Shown: positions 46,625-48,416 of the stretch, piece by piece
Layout: each line of letters starts with the position of its first letter
Position numbering within the stretch: the first letter of the stretch is position 1
Assembly: GCA_030591965.1 (NCBI GenBank)
Contig: JAUVAA010000003.1
Span: forward strand, 1-49,017
Direction of reading: 5' to 3'
Source of the DNA: a bacterium
GTDB lineage: Bacteria > Pseudomonadota > Gammaproteobacteria > Methylococcales > Methylomonadaceae
Length of the DNA: 49,017 nucleotides
Program-made: the position numbers and the translations under genes
Notes under the pieces: model-generated
The model's input: the letters and a program-made list of their open reading frames with translations, nothing else
Database searches by the model: none
What the model was told of the DNA's origin: nothing

Positions 46625-46634
46625 ATTGGTATCA

Positions 46635-47924
46635 TCAGTGTTCCCTTATTAATTGTATGCGTGGCACTAACCTCGCCATAAGAGAGTGCATAAAGCAACG
46701 CCAAGACATTCCTGTTATTATTGCATTTTGAACTGCCCGAATAGTTGATGAGCTGATACGAGCTATTCTTGGCAAAAAGAATAATGGATTGACAAAACAA
46801 CCTCGTTTTTGAGCCAGTTGTTGTCTTTTTTCCAGAGCCTCGATGTACTTTTTATCCGATGGATGAATTAATTCTGGTTGCTGTATTTTTGACGCTTCTT
46901 CAAACACACGCATTAAATTGTAACTCATGGCTGTTAGGCGCATTTGGTTTTTCAGTGAGTTGCCATTAGAAGACCAAGCTTTCGTTTCCTTCAAATTGCT
47001 TTTGGTGTTATTGAATGTCTTTTCAATCGTCCAGCGTTTAAAGTACAGTATAGCGATAGTCCCTGGGTTAATCGTCACTGGCAAAGTGGTGACAAAACGA
47101 TGAAGCTTTCCCGTTTCTGGATCACGGTAATCCACTATGCTAAATTTGATCCCCTTGTTTTCGTACACGCTATAAGTCTCAACGCCTGTATTGATTACAT
47201 TGAGGGAATCAAAAGAGAGGGATTCGACGAAAGTTGCGACTGAATTTTCTTTGAGCATTGAAACCATGTAATTAGCCTGTCCTTTCTGCTGATCCCACCA
47301 AGCATAGTCGGTGACCGCTTTATCGTAAATATAAAGGTGCTTTTGAGGGCTGTTATTTTGCTTTTCAATGTAATCTCGTAACACGGGTATTTCTTGATGT
47401 CTTTGGGTTCCATTCGTCACAAGGCAAAGAAACCTTAGCAACCCATTTCTAAGATTCAACGCGTAAATACCGCCTGCCGCATAGACTTTCCCATGGATAT
47501 TTTTCTCGGTATGGCAGGCATGGCTGATAAAATGTCCATCCGCTGCCTCGACGGTATATTCGTCAAGTTCTGGAAATTCTTTTAGGTAATCAACCCCTTG
47601 TGATAATAGTGATTCACAGTGAAGTTGATAGCTTTGCTGTTCAAATACCTCAAGCATATTTGTTCGTCTGTGCGACTTAAGGGATTTAAAATACGTTGAG
47701 TGAGGAAGCGACTGACCATAAATCTCTGCATTGATTTGGAGGAAATGGCGACCACTATCCACCGCACTGATACAACGCAACAACCCTAGCTGAATAAAGT
47801 CTATATCATTCAGCCCAGGACATGAACGTACCCACAAAGGGTGACGTTCTACTAACAAGGCACGCTCCATACTTTCATGACAGTGTTGGTGAATATATTC
47901 AGAGAGTGTCGGTTCTTTAAGCAT
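46635..47924 (-). CDS. IS4-family DDE transposase
   Basis: VTNGTQRHQEIPVLRDYIEKQ, LHRFVTTLPVTINPGTIAILYFKRWTIEKTFNNTKSNLKETKAW (Y-(2)-R-(3)-E-(6)-K-like); stop lies within the left TIR. Confidence 0.9.
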   Translation of the reverse strand: MLKEPTLSEYIHQHCHESMERALLVERHPLWVRSCPGLNDIDFIQLGLLRCISAVDSGRHFLQINAEIYGQSLPHSTYFKSLKSHRRTNMLEVFEQQSYQLHCESLLSQGVDYLKEFPELDEYTVEAADGHFISHACHTEKNIHGKVYAAGGIYALNLRNGLLRFLCLVTNGTQRHQEIPVLRDYIEKQNNSPQKHLYIYDKAVTDYAWWDQQKGQANYMVSMLKENSVATFVESLSFDSLNVINTGVETYSVYENKGIKFSIVDYRDPETGKLHRFVTTLPVTINPGTIAILYFKRWTIEKTFNNTKSNLKETKAWSSNGNSLKNQMRLTAMSYNLMRVFEEASKIQQPELIHPSDKKYIEALEKRQQLAQKRGCFVNPLFFLPRIARISSSTIRAVQNAIITGMSWRCFMHSLMARLVPRIQLIREH

Positions 47925-48037
47925 AGGTAATATCCATTGATGAGTTGATTAAAACGGACATTTTTAAATTTTTTTTTTGCAGTCATTGCAAGCTTTTTTT
48001 TGAATTATTGCTTATTTTTTTCACTGCTGCCTGAGCC

Positions 48038-48178
48038 GGGTGTGATTAAAAGTGCGGGGAAACAAGTAAAATCAATAGCATACAAAAATCGAACTCATCA
48101 ATTTAGAAGTATAACTATTTGATTTTGTTAGATGGTAAAAATATGCTTTTGAAAATCCCCGCACTTTTAATCGCACCC
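48038..48178. mobile_element. 141-bp MITE nested inside the IS
   Basis: TIR gggtgtgattaaaagtgcgggga / tccccgcacttttaatcgcaccc (22/23); TSD gcctgagcc at 48029-48037 and 48179-48187. Confidence 0.92.
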
Positions 48179-48366
48179 GCCTGAGCCTCACGTTATTATT
48201 CTGATGGCTTAAAGTTCAAAAAAATGGAAATATTGGTGTGGTACATTACTCTGCTAAGTTGTCGGTGATTTTAGTTGGGCGGCTCTTCTTTCAATGGGAA
48301 CACTGATGATTGGTATGAGACTGTAAAATAGCAAAATAGTTATTTCTCTGATTATAAGAAGTATTA

Positions 48367-48416
48367 GTGGGAGGGGCTTTTAGCCGCGATTTTATACGGC
48401 TAAAAGCCCCTCCCAC
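48367..48416. repeat. REP-like hairpin, GTGGGAGGGGCTTTTAG family, copy 3
   Basis: gtgggaggggcttttag ... ctaaaagcccctcccac, perfect 17-bp arms. Confidence 0.92.

Follow-up and report, generated by a model that had tools for sequence, protein, structure and literature searches.

Does the 141-bp segment in the leader of an IS4-like element belong to that element, or is it a mobile element in its own right, and if so, which transposase moved it? The question arises in the window, a stretch of 49,017 nucleotides from a gammaproteobacterium of the Methylomonadaceae (assembly GCA_030591965.1, contig JAUVAA010000003.1). The original prediction, made from these letters without database searches, described the segment as a MITE nested in the IS4-like element, lacking coding capacity and mobilised in trans by a transposase encoded elsewhere. 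The evidence presented here identifies the 141 bp as a true insertion into the host IS, and its likely partner, judged from the sequences, is an ISKra4-family, ISMich2-like IS of 1.40 kb whose two ORFs are probably linked by a -1 shift in an A8 tract.

The MITE and its host element

The host element lies on the reverse strand at 46633..48308 and measures 1676 bp with the MITE. It is bounded by 13-bp perfect ends (CATCAGTGTTCCC) and, as read at these ends, by an 8-bp duplication, ATTGGTAT, at 46625..46632 on the left and 48309..48316 on the right. It encodes an intact DDE transposase of 429 aa (46635..47924, reverse strand) that is 84% identical to full-length relatives. The single transposase ORF, the Pfam DDE_Tnp_1 domain, which is matched above its cut-off, and the Y-(2)-R-(3)-E-(6)-K spacing found in the translation as YFKRWTIEKTFNNTK, which we take to be the IS4-family motif, all resemble the IS4 family. 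However, the protein scores 66.1 bits against the best NCBIfam IS4 model, short of the equivalog cut-off of 115, so we name the element only IS4-like; it is a divergent member of the family or represents a subgroup of its own. Relatives at about 83% DNA identity and 1533-1535 bp in length occur in two genomes of the same genus (G100 and G113), and nine of the 14 copies there with both ends read carry exact 8-bp duplications. The G100 genome holds about 40 near-identical, near-full-length copies (L083, L087, L092 and others), a marked expansion. Comparison with plasmids gave no match to the host IS and only chance matches to the MITE.

The MITE occupies 48038..48178, has a GC content of 33% and contains no ORF of at least 60 aa, as expected of an element without coding capacity. 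Its left 23-bp inverted terminus (TIR), GGGTGTGATTAAAAGTGCGGGGA, lies at 48038..48060 on the forward strand, and the right TIR, GGGTGCGATTAAAAGTGCGGGGA, at 48156..48178 on the reverse strand differs from it at one position (22/23). A perfect 9-bp target duplication, GCCTGAGCC, flanks the element at 48029..48037 and 48179..48187. These boundaries, together with the transposase start at 47924, the right IS end at 48308 and the distance of 113 bp between the MITE and the ATG, agree to the base with those originally given. A pattern search of the whole window returned two matches to the 23-bp TIR, both of them the ends of the MITE, where none is expected (0 in 100 shuffles, even with three mismatches allowed); as had been claimed, no transposase in the window has matching termini.

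Just outside the host IS, at 48367-48416, the window carries a REP-like element with perfect 20-bp palindrome arms (GTGGGAGGGGCTTTTAGCCG) around a 10-bp loop. Its half unit of 23 bp is found 38 times across the genome (at most three mismatches), often in inverted pairs. The genome also has nine matches to Y1_Tnp (PF01797), one of them some 700 bp away from two paired REPs on contig C93, and the REPs are therefore likely to be RAYT-driven.

An insertion with empty sites in relatives

If the 141 bp were an integral part of the IS4-like element, other copies of the element should carry them at the same place. Instead, about 40 relatives of the host IS in the same-genus genome G100 are without the 150 bp formed by the MITE and one duplication, and the extra bases in the alignment are confined to the window copy. 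A query from which the MITE and one duplication have been removed aligns to the relatives in one piece, whereas the real query splits in two. Removing 141 + 9 bp restores the distance from the IS end to the ATG to 235 bp, compared with 233-234 bp in relatives, and the whole IS to 1526 bp, compared with 1533-1535 bp. These empty sites come from relatives at about 83% DNA identity, outside the window's species. The leader segment at the exact insertion site is poorly conserved, and the insertion point is therefore set by the duplication and not by the alignment. The nesting proposed in the original prediction thus passes the refuting test named there, and the window element is short, non-coding and TIR-bounded, with a target duplication and with empty sites in relatives.

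An ISKra4-family IS with the same ends

A search for the TIR core across the family found it in 30 of 201 genomes, while a reversed control pattern was found in two. In the G036 genome a 1404-bp IS with two ORFs (L033) has a perfect TIR at either end, and both ends are identical to the left TIR of the MITE at 23 of 23 positions. Relatives of this IS measure 1405 bp in G113 (L039) and 1402 bp in G068 (L162). ORF2 matches the ISKra4 transposase model with E-values of 4e-50 (L033) and 8e-52 (L039), and in all three elements it lies in the -1 frame with an A8-A9 run at the same position, an arrangement that PMC3942029 describes for elements of the ISMich2 group. When the two ORFs are fused, ISKra4 is the best match (E 1e-55 to 2e-58) over nearly the full profile, at 189-199 bits against an NCBIfam cut-off of 205; the proteins fall just under this cut-off, and their placement in the family is therefore based on the best match together with structure. 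At 1461-1777 of L039 (G113:C153) a second IS left end, oriented like the first, lies about 300 bp from it; the two share a short inner sequence, and a truncated copy probably sits beside the full IS. One contig of a viral collection (L112, IMGVR_UViG_3300020726_000069) has a TIR core at 75-91, near the contig end, and represents either an IS in a phage or a chromosomal piece misfiled as viral.

The partner-type IS also duplicates its target over the same length as the MITE. The G068 copy (L162) is flanked by GTGTACATT, and a copy in G175 that is split over two contigs is flanked by TTGGAAAAA, both of 9 bp. In G009 IS ends lie at contig borders, and six left ends can each be paired with a right end that has the same outer nine bases (GGGCAATGC, GGTGTCATC, TTGCGTAAT, CGTTAATGC, AACTGCGAT and GCCTGGACG), which brings the copies with 9-bp duplications to eight in these three genomes. 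No duplication flanks the single-contig copies in G036 and G113. Among the TIR pairs at fetched loci, where lengths of 5-12 bp were tried, the exact duplications (n = 8) are all of 9 bp. The ends and the duplication length are accordingly common to the MITE and the autonomous IS. The search for an IS with matching ends and 9-bp duplications that the original prediction had proposed thus leads to an ISKra4-family element, and at the sequence level this strongly supports the view that the MITE would be mobilised in trans.

A dispersed family and a possibly stranded copy

The window MITE is a single copy in its own genome, and when homologues in other genomes are counted the family is present in more than one dispersed copy. 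Full-length homologues at 72-76% identity occur in the same-genus genome G175, where one on contig C238 has the exact duplication TTAACTGCC and another, joined from contigs C152 and C135, has CTTTCCTAC. G175 thus holds both the partner-type IS and homologues of the MITE, each with 9-bp duplications. A decayed homologue is found in G086; the interior of the window MITE is 77% identical to this copy and 62.5% identical to those in G175. A sister MITE of 134 bp in G127 has the same ends around another interior and is flanked by GTTTGTATA. Scanning the genome contigs with a single TIR gave matches, while the paired-TIR pattern gave no exact match because the copies diverge.

MITEs with the same type of TIR appear, among the matches listed, in contigs filed as Verrucomicrobiales and as Candidatus Parabeggiatoa. 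The loci with TIR pairs among these matches are L174, L177, L180, L201, L222, L242, L249 and L252 of DUCD01 (filed as Verrucomicrobiales) and L271 and L285 of Candidatus Parabeggiatoa; the pairs lie 92-518 bp apart, have the same ends and in several cases carry exact 9-bp duplications. Their presence in distant phyla reflects either horizontal spread or misbinning.

The interior of the MITE is not derivable from the partner IS beyond the ends. A short subterminal TAAAATCA perhaps resembles the left end of the IS, with the lowest shuffle values at 0.004-0.02 among 24 uncorrected comparisons. That the interior arose from the IS through an internal deletion was considered but could not be shown, since only the ends and perhaps TAAAATCA are similar.

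No intact partner IS is present in the window's own assembly, a 91% complete draft in 223 contigs. The sole trace is a 3′ remnant (G000:C2:20102-20247) that is 71% identical over 36 residues and whose TIR core differs at two positions. Given its completeness and its division into contigs, which the IS itself tends to break, the assembly may have missed an intact copy. Because the genome as assembled holds only this decayed piece, the MITE is probably immobile there unless the unassembled part has an intact copy, and it may be stranded.

Mechanism and alternatives

We consider it very probable that the MITE is a DDE element of the non-autonomous kind, that an ISMich2-type ISKra4-family IS supplied the transposase that moved it in trans, and that it was inserted in this way into the leader of the IS4-like element. 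In this mechanism the transposase would be made by a -1 frameshift between the two ORFs and would recognise the 23-bp TIR common to IS and MITE; insertion at a 9-bp staggered cut would give rise to the 9-bp duplication, and a single event would have put the MITE into the 5′ untranslated leader of an IS4-like IS that was already resident and is otherwise intact.

Two other accounts of its origin deserve attention. The position of the 141 bp in a non-coding leader, their folding into a strong hairpin and the fact that an IS carrying them is known from one copy only are what one would expect if they had belonged to the IS4-like element ancestrally, for instance as a regulatory hairpin. This reading has virtually no probability in the face of relatives that are without the segment and have the restored spacing, the exact 9-bp duplication on either side, and homologues elsewhere with unrelated flanks and 9-bp duplications of their own; the empty sites led us to reject it. 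That the MITE was moved by another Mutator-like family (IS256 or ISLre2), or by some other IS sharing the ends by chance, draws on the 8- or 9-bp duplications that every prokaryotic Mutator-like family shares (PMC3942029) and on the occurrence of the same TIR, among the matches listed, in contigs filed as Verrucomicrobia and Candidatus Parabeggiatoa. However, an ISKra4-type transposase is encoded by each of the three complete elements of about 1.4 kb with these TIRs that were examined (L033, L039 and L162), and the remnant in the window's own genome is of the same type, which makes a different mover highly improbable.

Two further proposals concern the consequences of insertion. The suggestion in the original prediction that the MITE may affect transcription of the host transposase, by silencing or by read-through, fits its location 113 bp upstream of the ATG and its strong hairpin, a fold that the TIRs alone would give. 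However, the insertion displaces only distal leader; the ORF-proximal leader, which is conserved between relatives, lies untouched between the MITE and the ORF, and neither a sigma-70-like promoter nor a terminator was found in the region. A regulatory effect on the host IS is thus possible but unsupported, and we regard altered transcription as unlikely. More speculatively, this low-copy lineage, which has a conserved interior (AAAATCAATAGC ... TAACTATTTGA) in several species of a single genus, might have gained a role of its own, for instance in controlling the transcription of its neighbours, and be kept after the driver IS decays; we give this little credence.

Relation to known systems

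The trans-mobilisation reading assigns an orphan MITE to its putative driver through ends, duplication length and co-residence. It documents an ISKra4/ISMich2-type IS with MITEs in a family of methane oxidisers and, by TIR matches, in other groups, and it is of value for annotation, as many contigs of these draft genomes end at the IS ends. The window MITE leaves the general understanding of such elements as it was.

The partner IS resembles the ISMich2 group of the ISKra4 family (p-MULT 4), in which a -1 frameshift joins the two ORFs that encode the transposase and, as in the family at large, the IRs are 18-39 bp long with terminal C/G and the duplications 8 or 9 bp (PMC3942029). It shares with this group the -1 phase of its two ORFs, the A8-A9 run, a 23-bp IR that begins GGG and so ends in G/C, and 9-bp duplications, and the ISKra4 transposase model is its best match; it differs in that the fused proteins score slightly below the NCBIfam cut-off. 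A literature search whose scope left out most subscription papers returned no description of an ISKra4-driven MITE. Bacterial IS MITEs are reviewed as a general class (PMC10969869), and the window MITE resembles them in being short and non-coding, with near-perfect TIRs, a target duplication and a driver IS in related genomes. It differs in its probable driver, an ISKra4-family IS, and is in sum a new family of a known kind of MITE to which a partner has been assigned.
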